From the IMG/VR virus record IMGVR_UViG_3300035523_000075, positions 1-33,789 of that record: DNA of 33,789 bases. One strand, 5' to 3'. Positions 18,752-33,613 of this stretch are shown here, piece by piece. Origin of the DNA: a virus. The notes under the pieces were generated by a model, which saw only the letters and a list, made by a program, of their open reading frames with translations, was not told the origin of the DNA and did no database searches. The position numbers and the translations under genes were made by a program. Within the stretch, counting starts at the first letter, position 1, and the number at the start of each line of letters is the position of its first letter.

Positions 18752-18964
18752 ATGGATCCCAAGTACCTGTACATCATCCCCATCGTCACTCCGCGTGGCC
18801 TCGTGCATCTGCACCTCTACCAGGCGCCCTGCGGCATCTACGTGCAGGCCGGGCCCGGAGCTCGGACAAAGCCCCGCACAGACCCGGAGGGCGAGGCGCT
18901 GCTGGGCAAGCACCTTGAGGGGTGTGCGGACTGCCAGCGGCTGATGGCCCACGTGGAGTTCTAG
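18752..18964 (+). CDS. Small HxxxCxxC protein, unknown function
   Basis: This encodes 70 residues from ATG at 18752. The codons have the strong G/C third-position bias of the other genes, but no ribosome site is visible, so it may be leaderless or start elsewhere. It ends in a four-base CTAG overlap with the convergent gene on the other strand. A beta-like N-terminus (YLYIIPIVTPRGLVHLHLYQ) is followed by GKHLEGCADCQRLMAHVEF. The H-x3-C-x2-C spacing resembles the metal site of small zinc-binding regulators. It is one of few plus-strand genes in the left two thirds. Confidence 0.6.
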   Translation: MDPKYLYIIPIVTPRGLVHLHLYQAPCGIYVQAGPGARTKPRTDPEGEALLGKHLEGCADCQRLMAHVEF

Positions 18965-19362
18965 CCCAGCCCTCGGGGGTGAGTGGGAGCAGGGCTGATG
19001 TACCCGAAGCTCTCCGCCCTGTCCCTGAGCTTCTCTTCCCAGCACCCCTGGCAGCACCAGACCGCGCTGCGGTAGGTCGCTGACTGAGCGAGGTACACCC
19101 CCACCTCGCCAAGGCGGGTGTGGCAGAGGATGCACTGCATGCCTACAGGCGGAATCCCGCTCTCTCCAAAGCGAAGCATCTCATTGGCCGTCCTCCCCCT
19201 TTCGCAAGCCTCAGCCTTAGCGTTCAGCTCCTGCCAACAGGAGGGGCAGATCCAGAGGTTCCTGCCAGGGGTCGTGCCGCTCTCAAGAGTACGGGCACCT
19301 TCACGAACGGAGATCCGGCAGACCATGCAACGAGCCTCTGGATCTGTCCTGGAGCTGGACAC
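18961..19362 (-). CDS. Multi-zinc-ribbon protein (four CxxC knuckles)
   Basis: This encodes 133 residues from a GTG at 19362, six bases after GGAGG; an in-frame GTG at 19422 with a poorer ribosome site would add 20 residues. There are four CxxC-type pairs in order: CMVC, CPSC, CILC and a CCQGC cluster, forming two similar ribbons. Each ribbon pairs a C-x2-C strand with an LWICPSCW- or VWCCQGCW-like second half. The layout suggests a duplicated treble-clef/ribbon fold that could bind nucleic acid or protein. No enzyme motif is seen. It is the last gene of the leftward accessory transcripts. Confidence 0.75.
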   Translation of the reverse strand: MSSSRTDPEARCMVCRISVREGARTLESGTTPGRNLWICPSCWQELNAKAEACERGRTANEMLRFGESGIPPVGMQCILCHTRLGEVGVYLAQSATYRSAVWCCQGCWEEKLRDRAESFGYISPAPTHPRGLG

Positions 19363-19642
19363 CCTGTCCCTCCGACGCCCGGCAAGCAAACCGAAGGCCA
19401 CCCTGCCTAGTGGTTCGGTCACCTGCTCGGACTCCAGGTTCCTACCCCATTCCGCACGCTGTCAAGCAGGCGGTACCTAGTCGGCCCGTCGCTAGCCCGA
19501 CTCGTCGCCCCGGCCGTCCTGGTCGAACCCCTGATCCCAGCACCTCAGGCGCACCTATAGAGTCGTCCCATGGGTGTTGGCTATCAGGGCCCCTTCCTCC
19601 GCGCTCCGCCCCCCGCACCCAGGAATGGTGAGCCAAAGCGGG
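19363..19642. other. Gene-poor spacer, no confident feature
   Basis: Between the zinc-ribbon gene and the small membrane gene I see no convincing gene on either strand. A minus-strand TTGACA box at 19460-19465 lacks a matching -10 at normal spacing. A 64-residue minus-strand frame here (19442-19636) is Gly/Arg/Pro-rich and has no ribosome site. Confidence 0.4.
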
Positions 19643-20795: not shown

Positions 20796-21317
20796 CTAGA
20801 GCAGGCCGCAGATTTGGAGCCTGAAACCGATCACGTCCTCAGAGACCACAAACGTCCTGGCCAGGTCTGGGATGTCATCCGGATGGTATTGTCCCTTACG
20901 CCCGAAGCTGGGGAGGAGCGTCCGCAGGAATGCCTGGGGCACGAGAAGGTTAGCCGCGAAGACGTTGGCCTCGCGCTCGACGGGGTCTCGGTTGGATGTG
21001 CCCAGAGGCACCCTCATCAGTACGCCGCGCTCTGGGTTGTTCTGAAGCTGGTCCTGGTGCAGGGCCCAGTGTCCAAGCTCATGGGCAATCGTGAACCGCT
21101 GTCGGTTCGGGCGGTCCACCGCGTTGACCACGACCGATTGCTGCTCAAGGTCTATGTACCCCGCGACTTGGCGGGCCTGATCTGAGAAGTAGGCCATTGC
21201 GACAGACAGACCTTCGGACTTGGACAGCTCCACCACGTTCACCGGAGGCGACTTCACGAAGTTTCTCTCCAGCATGGCTTCGGCCGCCATCTGCGCCCTC
21301 TCGTCAGCCTGGCTCAT
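20796..21317 (-). CDS. ImmA/IrrE-family metalloprotease
   Basis: This encodes 173 residues from ATG at 21317 with GGGAGG upstream. The zinc motif HELGH is at residues 79-83 (RFTIAHELGHWALH). The second-helix acidic ligand lies in DPVEREANVFAANLLVP (E114/E116), exactly the family pattern. Upstream, the VNVVELSKSEGLSVAMAYF region is the usual N-terminal subdomain. ImmA-type proteases cleave repressor-like regulators in integrative elements, and IrrE plays this part in radiation response. A cognate HTH repressor usually sits next to it, but none is present here. The partner gene is instead a membrane protein. Confidence 0.9.
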   Translation of the reverse strand: MSQADERAQMAAEAMLERNFVKSPPVNVVELSKSEGLSVAMAYFSDQARQVAGYIDLEQQSVVVNAVDRPNRQRFTIAHELGHWALHQDQLQNNPERGVLMRVPLGTSNRDPVEREANVFAANLLVPQAFLRTLLPSFGRKGQYHPDDIPDLARTFVVSEDVIGFRLQICGLL

Positions 21318-21698: not shown

Positions 21699-21929
21699 CT
21701 ACTGCCCGTCGGCGACGAAGAGAAGGGTGTGCGTGCACGTATCACATATCACCGGTACCACAGCCAGGCCCTTTTGGAGGCTCAGGGCTCCGCCGCTCAC
21801 GATGGGCATGACGTAGATGTCATCCTGAACCGTCCAGCTCTCGCCACCGCAGAGCGAGCATGGGCGAGGGAACCCCAGGGCATCAAGCTTACGAGCGATC
21901 ATCTGTTTCTGTTGTGGTGATAAAGCCAT
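21699..21929 (-). CDS. Small zinc-ribbon protein
   Basis: This encodes 76 residues from ATG at 21929, eight bases after AGGAG. An N-terminal helix (SPQQKQMIARKLDALG) precedes a two-knuckle ribbon: CSLCGGESW and ICDTCTHTLLF, separated by about 40 residues of beta-rich sequence. The layout (helix, CxxCG, strand, CxxCxxTxLF) is seen in small bacterial and phage proteins of unknown role. It lies downstream of the TIR-like gene in the same direction. Confidence 0.75.
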   Translation of the reverse strand: MALSPQQKQMIARKLDALGFPRPCSLCGGESWTVQDDIYVMPIVSGGALSLQKGLAVVPVICDTCTHTLLFVADGQ

Positions 21930-22023: not shown

Positions 22024-22110
22024 CTCCTCACCCGCCGCCGCCCCCGCCACTCCCCCAGCGTCGGCCCGCCCGGATGGCCGCGCCCTTGGTCATCGGGATG
22101 CAGCTCCGGC
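22024..22110 (-). pseudogene. Remnant of a YHxxGCRYL-type domain (copy A of a direct repeat)
   Basis: Bases 22070-22110 match 23183-23223 at 39 of 41 positions, and weaker similarity continues to about 22024. At 23183 this sequence encodes the end of the second zinc-type domain of the secreted protein (RSCIPMTKDAAIRMG). Here the same reading would give RSCIPMTKGAAIRAG, then breaks down into Gly-rich sequence. The last codons of the TIR-like gene (AGAASR and its TGA) are read from this repeat in another frame. It is best explained as a truncated duplicate of the secreted-protein gene. In the spacer below it (21930-22040) a possible 50-residue minus-strand frame lacks a good start. Confidence 0.7.
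22070..22110. repeat. Direct repeat copy A (39/41 identical to 23183-23223)
   Basis: The core reads ccggatggccgcg on the plus strand and continues through tcatcgggatgcagctccgg. The two differences are c/t at position 14 and g/c at position 19. Copy-to-copy distance is 1113 bases, and the TIR-like gene occupies almost exactly the interval. Confidence 0.85.
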
Positions 22111-23064
22111 CAACGCTTCTGGCCTGCCGATCGTACTCTCGATCCGCATCTGCAGACGGTCCGGCAGCGTGTCTGGCGCCTCCCACACGATGACGTTGCG
22201 GTTGCGGATGTCGAAGTGCATCCGTTCGGAATCGGCCTGCCCGTCAAGGCAGTCCCTTCGGCACGTATATATGACGGGCTTGCCGAGCCCCTCAGCGAAC
22301 CCGGCTTCGTAGTAGACGTTCTGTCGCTGCCCTGTCATGTCAGCCACCACAAAGCGTGCTCTTCGGATTCCGGCAATCACCCCATCGTGGATATCGTGGT
22401 TGAACTGCTCGTGACGGATGATGAAGGGCTGATAGCCTGCAGCCTCCACTCCCTGATGGAGCGCCGCTGCCGCCATCGCCATCCCGTCGCCGAAAGACAT
22501 AGCGATGAAGCCGGTAGTCAGCTGCTGGCGTTCGGCCTCCCGTGTGAGGTCGAAGACCCGCTGCCAGCCCTTTGCCGTCAGCCTCCACTTCCTGGCGTCT
22601 TGCTTGCGCTGATCAATGTAGCCGCCATTGAGTAGCTGGTCCCGGAGGAATATCAGGGCTCCTTCGTCCTCAGCGTAGAAGAACTGCTCTGCCCCCTCCA
22701 GAACCTCGACCCATCTCCCAGGTACCTGTGTTGCGGCACCAAAGTTGAGTAGGGTTCGGTCCATCCGCTCCAGCACCGTGCGCGGGAACAGATCGAGGAT
22801 CTGCTCAGGCGTGAGGGCCCCTGGCCGATCCTCCCAGCACCCTGGCCTGGGGACGATGGACAGCCGTTCCCCCCTCTCATGGTACTCGCGAGCGATGGAC
22901 GCCACTTTGGGCCACATGTATGGGCTTGTAGACTGGGGGGCCCACCCGCCGCCCTCGTAAAGCTCGTAGGCACCACATCCAACACAGACGTAGCGGACCG
23001 CCTCGCTGCCAACGCAACTGACGTCTTTGCCGCAGAGAGGACACTTACTGCTCGCCGAGTTCAT
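22090..23064 (-). CDS. Zinc-ribbon protein with C-terminal TIR-like / nucleoside deoxyribosyltransferase-fold domain
   Basis: This encodes 324 residues from ATG at 23064 with GGGGGA upstream. An N-terminal zinc ribbon has C8, C11, C27 and C30. The middle region (130-180) looks winged-helix-like (LRDQLLNGGYIDQ...WRLTAKGWQRVFDL). From residue 184 a Rossmann-like domain follows: GFIAMSFGDG, AGYQPFIIRHEQFNHDIHDGV, RARFVVADMTGQRQNVYYEAGFAEGLGKPVIY, then MHFDIRNRNVIVW. This is the pattern of proteins related to nucleoside 2-deoxyribosyltransferases and TIR-like nucleotide-binding domains. Glu253 in NVYYEAG and Asp242 are candidate active-site residues. Such proteins often act as NAD- or nucleotide-consuming effectors in bacterial immunity. 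Here it may block superinfection. Confidence 0.75.
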   Translation of the reverse strand: MNSASSKCPLCGKDVSCVGSEAVRYVCVGCGAYELYEGGGWAPQSTSPYMWPKVASIAREYHERGERLSIVPRPGCWEDRPGALTPEQILDLFPRTVLERMDRTLLNFGAATQVPGRWVEVLEGAEQFFYAEDEGALIFLRDQLLNGGYIDQRKQDARKWRLTAKGWQRVFDLTREAERQQLTTGFIAMSFGDGMAMAAAALHQGVEAAGYQPFIIRHEQFNHDIHDGVIAGIRRARFVVADMTGQRQNVYYEAGFAEGLGKPVIYTCRRDCLDGQADSERMHFDIRNRNVIVWEAPDTLPDRLQMRIESTIGRPEALAGAASR

Positions 23065-28101: not shown

Positions 28102-28386
28102 ATGATCATGTCACCATCACCGATCCTAACACGTCCGCGCGCCTCAAAGCAAGCGGCCGACCACGCAAGCGTAGCGCATCACCATCACCCACACGCCCGA
28201 CCGCGGCAGCTCTACCGCGCCCTCGGCTGGGTCATCGCTGGAGCGGCCCTCTGCTCCGCCGCCTACCTCGTCCTCAGCGCCAGCCTTGACCGTGACGCCG
28301 AGCTGGCCGCCCAGAAGGGTCGCCGGCACCTGGCCACCTGCCCCCTGTGCCGCGCCCAGGCCCGTGAGTCTGGCGGTGCGAGGTGA
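28102..28386 (+). CDS. Single-pass membrane protein with HxxxCxxC end
   Basis: This encodes 94 residues from ATG at 28102; the in-frame ATG at 28108 has better spacing (eight bases) from GGAG and may be the true start. A His-rich N-terminus (VAHHHHPHARPR) precedes one transmembrane helix (LGWVIAGAALCSAAYLVLSASL, about 40-61), then RRHLATCPLCRAQA. The GTGA overlap with the next gene starts a chain of coupled small genes. Function unknown. Confidence 0.65.
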   Translation: MIMSPSPILTRPRASKQAADHASVAHHHHPHARPRQLYRALGWVIAGAALCSAAYLVLSASLDRDAELAAQKGRRHLATCPLCRAQARESGGAR

Positions 28387-28580
28387 GCGCCCCCGTCGCC
28401 CTCTCCGCCCTGCTGTACCGCCGCAAGGGGCACTTGCCCCTCACGGCCGTGCAGGACTCCCAGCGCCACGTCTGCTCGGACTGCGGACGTGAGATCCGCC
28501 CCACCCGGTCCCATGGCGCCGACCTGAGCCAGCCCGCCGTGCGGCGCTACTGCCTGGACTGCTGCGAGGTGCCGCGATGA
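28383..28580 (+). CDS. Small zinc-ribbon protein
   Basis: This encodes 65 residues from a GTG at 28383 with a GTGA overlap upstream and an ATGA overlap downstream. The two knuckles CSDCG and CLDCC are 24 residues apart, giving one compact ribbon (HVCSDCGREIRPTRSH, then RRYCLDCCEV). The N-terminus is basic and may contact nucleic acid. No enzyme motif is seen. Confidence 0.75.
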   Translation: MSAPVALSALLYRRKGHLPLTAVQDSQRHVCSDCGREIRPTRSHGADLSQPAVRRYCLDCCEVPR

Positions 28581-29110
28581 CCACCCTCGCCAACGCCTCT
28601 CCCCAGGAGCTCGCCCAGAGGGTGGACTCCGTGCTGGAGCAGCACTGCCAGCGCGTTCTGCGCCAGGCGGAGCTGGACCGGCGGCGCCAAGAGCGCTTCC
28701 CCAGCGGCCACTATCCCCTGGGATGGCCCTACCTCCAGCCCGCCCAGCCGTCCGACGACCGCGCCCAGTGGGTCGAGGGCTGCATCGTGTTCCACCGTTC
28801 GCACGCCGCCACCCTCGTCCTCGGCACCGTCACGGCCCAGCGGTATCTCCGCTGCCGGCACCTCGGCTGCCTCATCGCGCCCGGCACCCTCTGCGCCGCC
28901 ACCGCCCCGCGCCTGGGCACCCGCCAGCGCACCTACTACTGCCTGGGCTGCTGCACCCACCGCGCCCCGGTCCGGCCCGGCCCTCAGAACCGGCGCCCCT
29001 ACAGCCGACCCTCCATCACCGCCTCGGTGCTGGTGGAGAGCATCCTGGAGCCTCGCGCTCAGCGGGTGATAGACCGAGCCCGCGCCCTGGTGGCCGGAGG
29101 TGCCGGATGA
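28577..29110 (+). CDS. Zinc-ribbon protein with helical arms
   Basis: This encodes 177 residues from ATG at 28577. A long N-terminal helix (SPQELAQRVDSVLEQHCQRVLRQAELDRRRQERF) is followed by an aromatic segment, then knuckles CRHLGC and YYCLGCC with an intervening C at APGTLC. A C-terminal helix (RAQRVIDRARALVAG) ends it. It shares the LxCLxCC second knuckle style with the preceding gene, suggesting duplication and divergence. Coupled by ATGA overlaps on both sides. Confidence 0.72.
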   Translation: MTTLANASPQELAQRVDSVLEQHCQRVLRQAELDRRRQERFPSGHYPLGWPYLQPAQPSDDRAQWVEGCIVFHRSHAATLVLGTVTAQRYLRCRHLGCLIAPGTLCAATAPRLGTRQRTYYCLGCCTHRAPVRPGPQNRRPYSRPSITASVLVESILEPRAQRVIDRARALVAGGAG

Positions 29111-29289
29111 CCGCCACCACCTACCCCCTCACCGAGGGTCCCTGCGCCCTCTGCACCCTGCCCGACACCCTAGTGCCCCTCACGATGGGCGCCGAGACCG
29201 TCCTGCTGTGCGCCCGGTGCTACGGCGACGCCACGGACACCGAGGTCACCCTTGATGACCTGCTCGACGAGGAGGGCGACTATGCCTGA
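29107..29289 (+). CDS. Small zinc-ribbon protein with acidic tail
   Basis: This encodes 60 residues from ATG at 29107, in an ATGA overlap. The knuckles are CALC and CARC (EGPCALCTLPD, then VLLCARCYGD), and the last 18 residues are acidic (TEVTLDDLLDEEGDYA). A longer version of this frame from 28723 would be antisense-like in composition and was rejected. Confidence 0.72.
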   Translation: MTATTYPLTEGPCALCTLPDTLVPLTMGAETVLLCARCYGDATDTEVTLDDLLDEEGDYA

Positions 29290-29521
29290 GAGATCCAAAC
29301 TCGCGTTCAGCGTGCGCGTTGACCCGCCCGAGTCGGCCCGGATGAACGCGGCCTCCCTGCTGAGGGGTTCGGTCGCACTCCTGGCCCTGTCGAGGGACCT
29401 CACCTACCAGCACCTGCGCGCAGACGACTCCCAAGCCGTCGAGGCGGCCCTAGAGGCCACGCTCAGCGCCATGGACGTACTGGTGGAGCCCCTTGAGAGT
29501 GAGGCCGGCCATGGTAACTGA
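29282..29521 (+). CDS. Small helical protein, unknown function
   Basis: This encodes 79 residues from ATG at 29282 with GGAGG upstream, overlapping the previous gene by eight bases. It has a strand (KLAFSVRVDPPE) and two helices (NAASLLRGSVALLALSRDL and SQAVEAALEATLSAMDVLV). It has no cysteines, unlike its neighbours. The strand-helix-helix pattern might again be ribbon-helix-helix-like, but this is weak. Confidence 0.65.
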   Translation: MPERSKLAFSVRVDPPESARMNAASLLRGSVALLALSRDLTYQHLRADDSQAVEAALEATLSAMDVLVEPLESEAGHGN

Positions 29522-29831
29522 CGAGGCCCCAACCGGCCTGACCACCTGCCGCGTCTGTGGCAAGACGGTGGACCCCGACGACTACTCAGACGCCAAGCGC
29601 GTGGCCCTCTACCCGGACCGTGAGCCAGAGCCCTTCATCTGGCTCTGCCCGGGCTGCTTCAGGGACCCCGCGATCCGCAAGTATGCCCGGGAGCAGGCGG
29701 TGGAGCTGCATGAGGCGGAGCTTCGGCGCCACGAACGCGAGAAGGAGGCGAACCGCCAGGCCGCTCTTGTCGGTACCCGCGTGCGCCAGGCCGGCCGTGC
29801 CGCCACCACCCGCAGAGGAGGTCTGCTGTGA
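29511..29831 (+). CDS. Zinc-ribbon protein with C-terminal helix
   Basis: This encodes 106 residues from ATG at 29511, overlapping the previous gene. The ribbon is CRVCGKTVDPDDY ... FIWLCPGCFRDP, closest in style to the LWICPSCW ribbon of the protein at 18961. A long charged helix (REQAVELHEAELRRHEREKEANRQAAL) and a basic tail follow. The shared Trp-x-Cys-Pro-x-Cys element links proteins on both arms of the genome. Confidence 0.72.
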   Translation: MVTDEAPTGLTTCRVCGKTVDPDDYSDAKRVALYPDREPEPFIWLCPGCFRDPAIRKYAREQAVELHEAELRRHEREKEANRQAALVGTRVRQAGRAATTRRGGLL

Positions 29832-30296: not shown

Positions 30297-30623
30297 ATGC
30301 TGGACTGGTTCACTCCCGAGGAGCAAGAGATGTGGGATGCGTTGGAGCACGGAGGGTGGCTCGCCTACATGAGCGAGCGCATGCTGGCGATCTACCTCTA
30401 CATCGCGCGGCATCAGGACCGGGCAGCGACGAAGGGATTACCCCAGGGTACCATCGCGGACGCCTACGGTATCTCCACCTCCTGCGTATCCCGCACCCTA
30501 CGGAAGCTGAAGGAGGACTCCCTCGTTACCGTAGTCAGGCGCACGGGCCAACAGGCTAACCTCCTGGCGATTCGGATCCCCCTTCACCCCGCTCCCGAGG
30601 GCAAGCAGTCCAGGAAAGGCTGA
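30297..30623 (+). CDS. Winged helix-turn-helix DNA-binding protein
   Basis: This encodes 108 residues from ATG at 30297; no clear ribosome site is seen. N-terminal helices (MLAIYLYIARHQD) precede a clear helix-turn-helix: GTIADAYGISTSCVSRTLRKLKED, then the wing SLVTVVRRTGQQANLLAIRI. It resembles MarR/replication-initiator-type winged helices. It could regulate the early operon or act as a second initiator-like factor. It has an inverted repeat just upstream, consistent with self-control. Confidence 0.75.
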   Translation: MLDWFTPEEQEMWDALEHGGWLAYMSERMLAIYLYIARHQDRAATKGLPQGTIADAYGISTSCVSRTLRKLKEDSLVTVVRRTGQQANLLAIRIPLHPAPEGKQSRKG

Positions 30624-31256: not shown

Positions 31257-31414
31257 CTGGCTTCCCCCTCGGCCTGGCTTGCGGCGGCGCGGTCATGGCC
31301 ATCGCCATCGCGCTGATGATACTGGCGGCCGCCTTCAGCCGCGGCGACGAGACCCCGCTGCGGGACCCGGAGGCGCTGTCGGAGCGGGCCACCACTGCGG
31401 AGGAGGTGCTCTGA
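31253..31414 (+). CDS. 53-residue membrane protein with GTG start
   Basis: I read this by hand from GTG at 31253, inside the previous stop region, to TGA at 31412-31414, whose last base begins the ATG of the ATPase gene. One hydrophobic helix (GGAVMAIAIALMILAAAF, about 11-28) is followed by an acidic tail (SRGDETPLRDPEALSERATTAEEV). The unbroken chain of overlaps on both sides is the main support. Confidence 0.65.
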   Translation: MTGFPLGLACGGAVMAIAIALMILAAAFSRGDETPLRDPEALSERATTAEEVL

Positions 31415-32610
31415 TGGCCTTCCAGCGAGCATCGAAGAGCCAGGCCCGTCTGCGTCTGGCCCTGGTGGGCCCCTCGGGGTCCGGAAAGACCATGACGGCC
31501 CTGCGGATCGCCAAGGGCCTGGGGCAGCGGGTGGCGGTGCTGGACACCGAGCGCGGCTCCGCCAGCAAGTACGCGGAGCTGGGCTTCGACACCCAGGAGC
31601 TCACCAGCTTCCACCCAGAGCGCTACATCGCGGCCATCCACGAGGCGGAACAGGCCGGGTACGACGTGCTGGTGATCGACAGCCTCAGCCACGCCTGGAG
31701 CGGCAAGGACGGGGCCCTGGAGCTGGTTGACAGGGTCTCGAAGCGCAACCAGGGCGGCAATAACTTCGCGGCCTGGAGAGACGTCACCCCACTCCAGAAC
31801 GCGCTTATTGACGCCATCCTGGGCGCCGGCCTGCACGTCATCTGCACCCTTCGGGCCAAGGAGGACTACTCGCTGGAGAAGGACGCCAGCGGGCGCTCCC
31901 AGGTCGTCAAGAAGGGGCTGCAGCCCATCCAGCGCGAGGGCCTTTCCTACGAGTTCGACGTTGTCGGCGACATCAACATGAACCACGACCTCGTCATCTC
32001 CAAGACCCGCTGCCCGGCTCTGACTGACCAGGTCTACCCCATGGCCGGCCCCGAGATCGCGGGTATCCTCAACGCTTGGCTCACCGACGGCGCTCCGCCT
32101 CCGCCCGACCTGGTCGCCGAGTGCGACGCTCTGGCCAAGCAGCTCCGGCAGAGCCACGGCTACACGCCCGAGGACTGGCGCCAGGACTGCCAGGCCGCGG
32201 GCGGCTCCCTTAACCCCGCCAAGTTCGCCCGTGAGCAGCAGGCGGCCCTCCTGGAGCGGCTGCAGGCCCTGGCCGCCACCGAGCCGGCCGCAGAGGACGA
32301 GGACCCTGAGACGGAGCCGGAGGGGGCCCCGGTGGCCACTGAGCCAGCCGATGCCACAGCGACTACGGACCGCCCCCGGGAGGAGCCTATCAGTGACGAC
32401 ACCCTCCGGAGGATTGAGGCGCTGACGGCGGACCTGGGAGCGGCCGGGGTCGGGAAGGTGAAGCTCTCCCTGCTGAAGACGAAGACTGTGGGCGCGCTGC
32501 CCCTAACCAGCCTCTCTGAGTCCCAGGGCCAGGCCCTACTGAAGGCGTTGGCCAAGAGCGGCTCGATGGCCACTGAGGCCTCAACGCCGGACCCATACGC
32601 GAACGAGTAG
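31414..32610 (+). CDS. RecA-like ATPase, Sak4-type recombination protein
   Basis: This encodes 398 residues from ATG at 31414, seven bases after GGAGG. The Walker A is GPSGSGKT (residues 19-26) and the Walker B strand is YDVLVIDSLSHAW (about 84-96). The RecA-like core continues with HVICTLRAKEDYSLEKD and a basic GLQPIQREGLSYEFDVV segment, the usual pattern of phage AAA_24/Sak4 single-strand-annealing ATPases. Residues 290-330 are an acidic Glu/Ala/Pro linker, followed by a small helical C-domain. It probably works with the adjacent initiator in recombination-dependent replication. No exonuclease or single-strand binding protein is visible in this window. Confidence 0.82.
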   Translation: MAFQRASKSQARLRLALVGPSGSGKTMTALRIAKGLGQRVAVLDTERGSASKYAELGFDTQELTSFHPERYIAAIHEAEQAGYDVLVIDSLSHAWSGKDGALELVDRVSKRNQGGNNFAAWRDVTPLQNALIDAILGAGLHVICTLRAKEDYSLEKDASGRSQVVKKGLQPIQREGLSYEFDVVGDINMNHDLVISKTRCPALTDQVYPMAGPEIAGILNAWLTDGAPPPPDLVAECDALAKQLRQSHGYTPEDWRQDCQAAGGSLNPAKFAREQQAALLERLQALAATEPAAEDEDPETEPEGAPVATEPADATATTDRPREEPISDDTLRRIEALTADLGAAGVGKVKLSLLKTKTVGALPLTSLSESQGQALLKALAKSGSMATEASTPDPYANE

Positions 32611-32614
32611 GCCC

Positions 32615-33613
32615 ATGCCGCTACCCGCTCTTGGTCCCCGGTTGGGGTCCATGTCAACCGCAGAACTCAAGGTGCTGGTCGCCCTCTCGGAGGCCAGCAC
32701 CCCCCTCTCCACCGCCGATCTGTGCGCCCTCACGGGCCTGGACCGGAACGCGGTAGGGCGTGGGGCCCAGCTCGCCATCGCCCGCGAGCTGGTGACGCGA
32801 GGGAGAAGAGGTCACCAGTTGGTCTACTCGATCTCGGACCCCAACTGCGATGCAGCACAGCAGTTGAGGTCCCTAACTGCTATGCAGCATAGCAGTTCCA
32901 GTGTGGAGGTCCCCCCAACTGCTATGCAGCATAGCAGTTGCGGCGGGCCCAACTGCGATGCAGCACAGCAGTTGCCACCCCAAACCGGCCCAACTGCGAT
33001 GCAGCATAGCAGTTCCGAGGGCACTTCACGCTCAGCCACCCCTGCCGAGGGCGCCCAAGGCAGCGAAACGGGTTCTTTCCCCCCCATACCCCCTCTATCT
33101 CCTTGTGTGGTCTTAGATCCTCACACCCAAGGGGGGAGAGGGGAGAGACAAGGGGGAGGTGCAGGAGGGCCCCAGCCGGTACCGACCCCCCGACGCGCCA
33201 AGCCAGCCAGTCGCAAGCACCCCGCCCACTCCGAGCGGTTCGAGCAGTTCTGGGACGCCTATCCCCGGCACGAGCGGAAGGTCAAGAAAGTGCTCGCCTG
33301 GGAGGCCTGGCTACGCATCAGCCCCCAGCCCGACGCGGACGACACCACCTTCCAGGCCCTAATGCAGGGGCTGGAGCGCTTCAAGCGCAGCCAGCACTGG
33401 GCCAATGGCAACGTCTGCATGCCCTCTACGTTCCTGAACGAGTTCATGTGGACGGAAGACCCCCTCCCGGCCCTCGTGACCTCCAGCATCCCCGTCGGCC
33501 CACCCCACCGCCCCGCCACCGATGGCCGCCCCATCACACAGGCGGACCGCGACGCGGAGGAGTTCGAGGCCCGGGCCCGCCGCGGCCAGCAGGGAGGAGG
33601 CCCCCGTGGCTGA
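32615..33613 (+). CDS. Replication initiator, lambda O-like, containing the iterons
   Basis: This encodes 332 residues from ATG at 32615; an in-frame ATG at 32651 is an alternative and neither has a strong ribosome site. The N-terminal winged helix (LKVLVALSEASTPLSTADLC, then DRNAVGRGAQLAIARELVTRG) would bind the origin repeats. Residues 76-135 are a low-complexity linker (NCDAAQQL and TAMQHSSS repeats), which is simply the translation of five DNA iterons. The C-terminal domain (FEQFWDAYPRHERKVKKVLAWEAW, then MPSTFLNEFMWTED) matches the FWxxYP...PxTyLN pattern of phage replication proteins that recruit the helicase loader. An initiator gene carrying its own origin is the lambda arrangement. 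Confidence 0.82.
   Translation: MPLPALGPRLGSMSTAELKVLVALSEASTPLSTADLCALTGLDRNAVGRGAQLAIARELVTRGRRGHQLVYSISDPNCDAAQQLRSLTAMQHSSSSVEVPPTAMQHSSCGGPNCDAAQQLPPQTGPTAMQHSSSEGTSRSATPAEGAQGSETGSFPPIPPLSPCVVLDPHTQGGRGERQGGGAGGPQPVPTPRRAKPASRKHPAHSERFEQFWDAYPRHERKVKKVLAWEAWLRISPQPDADDTTFQALMQGLERFKRSQHWANGNVCMPSTFLNEFMWTEDPLPALVTSSIPVGPPHRPATDGRPITQADRDAEEFEARARRGQQGGGPRG
32843..33014. repeat. Five 23-bp palindromic iterons, probable replication origin
   Basis: The copies start at 32843, 32875, 32917, 32951 and 32992, each 23 bases. The consensus is AACTGCKATGC-A-GCAYAGCAGTT. Copies 2 and 3 are perfect 11-1-11 palindromes; the others differ at one or both of the two central variable positions. Centre-to-centre steps are 32, 42, 34 and 41 bases, near three or four helical turns. 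A pyrimidine-rich, lower-GC stretch follows (about 33070-33120) and could unwind. All lie within the initiator coding sequence. Confidence 0.88.

Follow-up and report, generated by a model that had tools for sequence, protein, structure and literature searches.

Five palindromic iterons inside an initiator gene as a candidate lambda-type replication origin in an unclassified GC-rich phage

Each iteron of the lambda origin is an imperfect 19-bp inverted repeat that is bound by a dimer of the O protein, and Stx lambdoid phages carry six iterons (PMC7466680; PMC5043065). In lambda, an A-rich melting region is located directly after the iterons (PMC5043065). Here we analyzed a virus record of 33,789 bases, which is probably a fragment and is referred to as the window in the following. 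It contains five palindromes of 23 bp each at positions 32843-33014, all of them within the gene of a putative replication initiator (Table 1). The original prediction had contrasted this array with lambda because of its long palindromes and higher copy number, but this contrast is wrong, as the lambda iterons are inverted repeats too, and the Stx phages have six iterons (PMC7466680; PMC5043065). In our interpretation the array is very probably a lambda-type intragenic replication origin, new in sequence and ordinary in kind, for which we infer origin activity, protein binding and melting.

Table 1. Coordinates of the features at the initiator locus (positions refer to the window)
Feature	Position	Strand	Remarks
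Sak4-like/AAA_24 ATPase, upstream, replication-recombination context	31408..32610	+	phrog_124 E 2e-12; Pfam AAA_24 E 2e-27
Initiator gene, 332 aa, lambda O-like layout	32615..33613	+	phrog_270 E 7e-15; also phrog_9474, phrog_9327
N-terminal winged-helix-like DNA-binding segment, about residues 13-79	32651..32850	+	weak MarR_2 and HTH_metalloreg matches
Iteron 1	32843..32865	+	AACTGCGATGCAGCACAGCAGTT; 9/11 arm pairs; a perfect palindrome would give an in-frame TAG
Iteron 2	32875..32897	+	AACTGCTATGCAGCATAGCAGTT; perfect palindrome, 11/11 arm pairs
Iteron 3	32917..32939	+	perfect palindrome, 11/11 arm pairs
Iteron 4	32951..32973	+	same sequence as iteron 1; 9/11 arm pairs; a perfect palindrome would give an in-frame TAG
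Iteron 5	32992..33014	+	10/11 arm pairs
Candidate unwinding segment	33072..33160	+	low duplex stability; extreme pyrimidine/purine tracts of the contig
C-terminal 'FWxAYP' domain	33236..33466	+	phrog_270 family; presumed recruiter of the helicase or its loader

The presence of a five-copy array of a 23-bp palindrome inside the initiator gene was confirmed at five start positions. Shuffled windows contained no match to the palindrome, even if three mismatches were allowed, and codon-shuffled versions of the gene reached a maximum of 2-3 copies in 200 trials in comparison to the five observed. Two of the copies are perfect palindromes and one is near-perfect; the remaining two have two mismatches each. 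The distances between the iterons are 32, 42, 34 and 41 bp, corresponding to 3.05, 4.0, 3.24 and 3.90 turns. As the resulting phase coherence of 0.79 at 10.5 bp is equalled by 2.6% of random spacings (p about 0.03), there is only moderate support for a spacing near whole helical turns. Between the iterons, the spacers are unlike each other, which argues against a simple recent tandem duplication. No further copy of the palindrome was found in the rest of the contig, a search of 2.9 million viral contigs with two degenerate forms gave no match, and a DNA search with the array revealed no close relative in phages. A loose form of the palindrome produced scattered matches in genome contigs, each at a single place, which we took as chance matches or terminators.

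The iterons are read in two frames, encoding NCDAAQQ in copies 1 and 4 and TAMQHSS in copies 2, 3 and 5. It is the NCDAAQQ frame in which a perfect palindrome would contain the TAG stop, and the T-to-C difference that avoids it is carried by exactly copies 1 and 4. This pattern makes clear mechanical sense if the iteron is preserved as a DNA site within the limits set by the protein, but with five copies the placement is only a 1-in-10 coincidence, and the two identical copies may share descent.

At the protein level, the array is positioned between the N-terminal winged-helix-like segment and the C-terminal domain of the initiator. The match to the phrog_270 profile 'replication initiation protein' (E 7e-15) aligns residues 139-297 with profile positions 151-264 of 383 and covers the C-terminal part only. 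The first 65-80 residues gave matches under the cut-off to the Pfam family MarR_2 (E 9e-5) and to the ArsR-type HTH_metalloreg (E 0.003), and a structure model of this domain consists of three helices at low confidence (mean pLDDT 53). TIGR01610 (phage_O_Nterm) did not match the N-domain at E 0.1, and a profile comparison of the C-domain with the lambda O-type C-terminal domain resulted in a probability of 0.6%. Judged from these sequence comparisons, the initiator should not be filed in the lambda O family, despite its lambda-like arrangement. A search of solved structures yielded no useful relative, and no close relative was detected when viral and genome contigs were searched directly with the initiator or phages with only the N-domain.

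The contig stops 176 bases past the initiator gene, which cuts off the next gene, and no helicase or loader gene is seen there. On such an incomplete contig the GC skew is uninformative for the origin: its cumulative curve declines almost continuously up to the contig end and has no inflection. The upstream ATPase is 57% identical to proteins of Myxococcus phages Mx8/Mx9 over 57% of its length and has no close relative in the viral contigs searched; the initiator and the ATPase are both absent from viral contigs that have the capsid or terminase gene in common with this phage, and most of these contigs are fragments. About 2 kb before the initiator, an orphan 108-aa winged-helix protein (30297-30623) matches the N-terminal part of phrog_270 (E 6e-6) and is possibly a regulator or a relic of another initiator N-domain. 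Further upstream, a perfect 19-nt inverted repeat (26848-26866/26923-26941) with 56 nt between its arms lies near a switch from minus- to plus-strand genes and is possibly a regulatory or attachment site. Small proteins with paired, zinc-ribbon-like CxxC motifs are scattered at 18752-19422, 21699-21929 and 28383-29831, and the two that were scanned (18961-19419 and 29493-29828) had no Pfam match. A 324-aa protein with an N-terminal CxxC region on the minus strand (22090-23064) shows a weak nucleoside 2-deoxyribosyltransferase-like match (E 6e-5, under the cut-off) and might be a nucleotide-signalling or defence protein. The phage may be temperate, as hinted by an IrrE/ImmA-like M78 metallopeptidase (20796-21317, minus strand), since peptidases of this type are frequently associated with the control of prophage repressors.

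Additional evidence comes from a panel of C-domain relatives drawn from phages, viral contigs and plasmids, in which the label Burkholderia-type means grouping with Paraburkholderia phage IPK and not known hosts of the viral contigs. Because the iterons are imperfect, counting exact palindromes with 7-bp arms did not distinguish the linker from other parts of the loci, whereas a count of repeated 16-mers did. By the latter, the linker preceding the C-domain contains 3-5 repeat copies in most relatives, and outside the linker three copies are almost never found in the same loci. Such linker repeats are present in Paraburkholderia phage IPK, in Acinetobacter phages LZ35 and Cato and, with four copies, in the initiator of the Rhodococcus aetherivorans plasmid pRA1. 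Between groups the repeats are unrelated in sequence: the Burkholderia-type phages carry GGTTATCNAAACGATAAC, GGGGGAGATTCCCC-like, GGTTGTTGATTCAACAACC, GGTTCTGAAAATCAGAACC and GGTTACCGAATCAGTAACC repeats, LZ35 carries AACCCAAATTTGGGT, and pRA1 carries GCCTCAGTCAGTGAGGC at a spacing of 23 bp. Two loci with the C-domain (L146 and L154) have no linker array. The strict count gives no more than two copies for Lagaffe, L136, L148 and L150, although palindromes are visible by eye in the last three. In the Burkholderia-type phages, a near-constant tract, ACAAAAGACAACTCCAAAAG, follows iterons of five different sequences (L129, 2940-3000, and the linkers of L137-L152), and in lambda, ACAAAAGACA immediately follows iteron 4 in the corresponding position (L180, 622-661). 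The tract is perhaps a common melting-region motif.

For 16 Burkholderia-type loci, the identity of the N-domain predicts the identity of the iterons (Spearman 0.76, Mantel p 0.0002), and the identity of the C-domain is no significant predictor (0.25, p 0.07). That the repeat sequence tracks the N-domain is expected if this domain recognises the iterons. The test was run on O_N-type relatives and not on the N-domain of this phage; TIGR01610 matched the tested member of each of five N-domain classes as well as lambda O. The predicted origin function with binding by the N-terminal winged helix appears well supported by this comparison, that is by repeats at the same place in relatives and by their co-variation with the N-domain.

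A candidate melting region adjoins the iterons and starts about 58 bp past iteron 5. Positions 33072-33121 form the fifth least stable independent 50-bp interval of the contig, and 33086-33125 is the least stable 40-mer between the iterons and the C-domain, within the top 0.13% of the contig. The 30-mers richest in pyrimidines anywhere in the contig are found at about 33073-33104 (start about 33075) and those richest in purines at about 33129-33160 (start about 33130). In absolute terms this candidate melting site is GC-rich, and it is strand-asymmetric and not AT-rich. A hairpin formed by the pyrimidine/purine tract was rejected, since the tract folds no better than its shuffles.

We propose that dimers of the initiator would bind through the N-terminal winged helix to the five palindromic iterons in the initiator's own gene, one dimer per iteron. 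The nucleoprotein complex would then strain and open the segment shortly downstream (about 33072-33160), which is weak and strand-asymmetric, and the FWxAYP domain, which presumably recruits the replicative helicase or its loader, would bring it to the opened DNA. The iterons would be kept by selection on the DNA, with a protein linker that tolerates whatever they encode. We infer binding, dimerisation, melting and helicase recruitment at the array. Read from the sequence, the matches of the C-domain to replication initiation families and the weak segment at the position where lambda has its AT-rich region point to an origin. What counts against it is the missing close relative in which repeat conservation could be followed, the weak MarR homology together with the low confidence of the structure model, the missing TIGR01610 match, the GC skew without inflection, the helicase or loader gene not seen before the contig end and the relatives that have no array or only two copies.

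The size of the palindromes also suits dimers of MarR/ArsR-type proteins, and the gene of the orphan winged-helix protein that resembles the N-terminal part of phrog_270 lies 2 kb upstream. The palindromes could mainly be operators at which a dimeric winged-helix regulator, either the initiator itself or the 108-aa protein, blocks or times transcription through the gene, with no origin role. We consider this unlikely, because all five sites are far inside the coding region and no site lies in a promoter region, repeats are found at the corresponding position within initiator genes of unrelated phages and of a plasmid, and a low-stability segment adjoins the array. Origin function and autoregulation by the same palindromes are compatible and do not exclude each other.

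It is very unlikely that the palindromes function as hairpins in RNA or DNA, for example in mRNA structure, attenuation or a cruciform, and not as protein-binding sites. Copies 2 and 3 do fold into hairpins of 10-11 bp with z-scores below -4.5, but copies 1, 4 and 5 have lost base pairs through uncompensated changes, which favours protein half-sites and argues against hairpin extrusion, one of the two options named in the original prediction. Furthermore, no Rfam family was matched at its gathering score, and the relatives with repeats matched to their N-domains speak for recognition by protein. Palindromic elements inserted within genes are known in other bacteria, and the copies could represent such a small mobile element that has multiplied in a tolerant linker and has no role in replication. 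Its absence elsewhere in the contig and in the 2.9 million viral contigs, together with unrelated repeats at the same place of related initiators, makes this extremely unlikely.

With the array read as an intragenic origin, we lean towards the idea that one constant helicase-side C-domain has repeatedly been joined to different winged-helix domains, not only of the lambda O type, and that each joining brought its own palindromic sites in the same gene, resulting in a plug-in origin. The MarR/ArsR-like domain with its 23-bp sites would be one version and pRA1 another. The locus provides a concrete origin candidate for an unclassified GC-rich phage and a further example of a DNA-binding domain that is not recognised by the lambda O model and that seems to carry its own matched iterons within the same gene. 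As five O-type domain classes and five repeat sequences are combined with a near-constant C-domain, modular exchange of origin specificity is directly testable.

In lambda ori, and also in the Stx phages 933W and P27, the origin is located in the middle of the initiator gene, as proposed here, and inverted-repeat iterons between the DNA-binding and C-terminal domains are followed by a melting region. The phage studied here shares the repeats in the initiator gene between both domains, and every iteron is an inverted repeat. In contrast to lambda with its 18-19-bp iterons spaced 20-24 bp, its palindromes have 23 bp, are spaced 32-42 bp and are more regular in their symmetry; the N-domain has no TIGR01610 match, the C-domain has no detectable similarity to lambda O, and the putative melting region is not simply AT-rich. 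The Burkholderia-type O-like initiators (IPK, L137-L152) have the FWxAYP C-domain family in common with this phage, as well as palindromic linker iterons followed by a strand-asymmetric tract, which is A-rich in their case. They differ in a TIGR01610 O-type N-domain and in about four shorter and more closely spaced repeats, none of whose five sequences resembles the one described here. The HTH protein of R. aetherivorans pRA1 belongs to the same C-domain family and also has palindromic linker repeats, four at 23-bp spacing with an AT-rich stretch after them, but it is encoded by a plasmid and the repeat sequence is another one; in the literature consulted we found no statement that the array segment is the replicon of this plasmid. 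The arrangement is also in line with iteron plasmids, in which arrays of initiator-binding sites adjoin the melting region.
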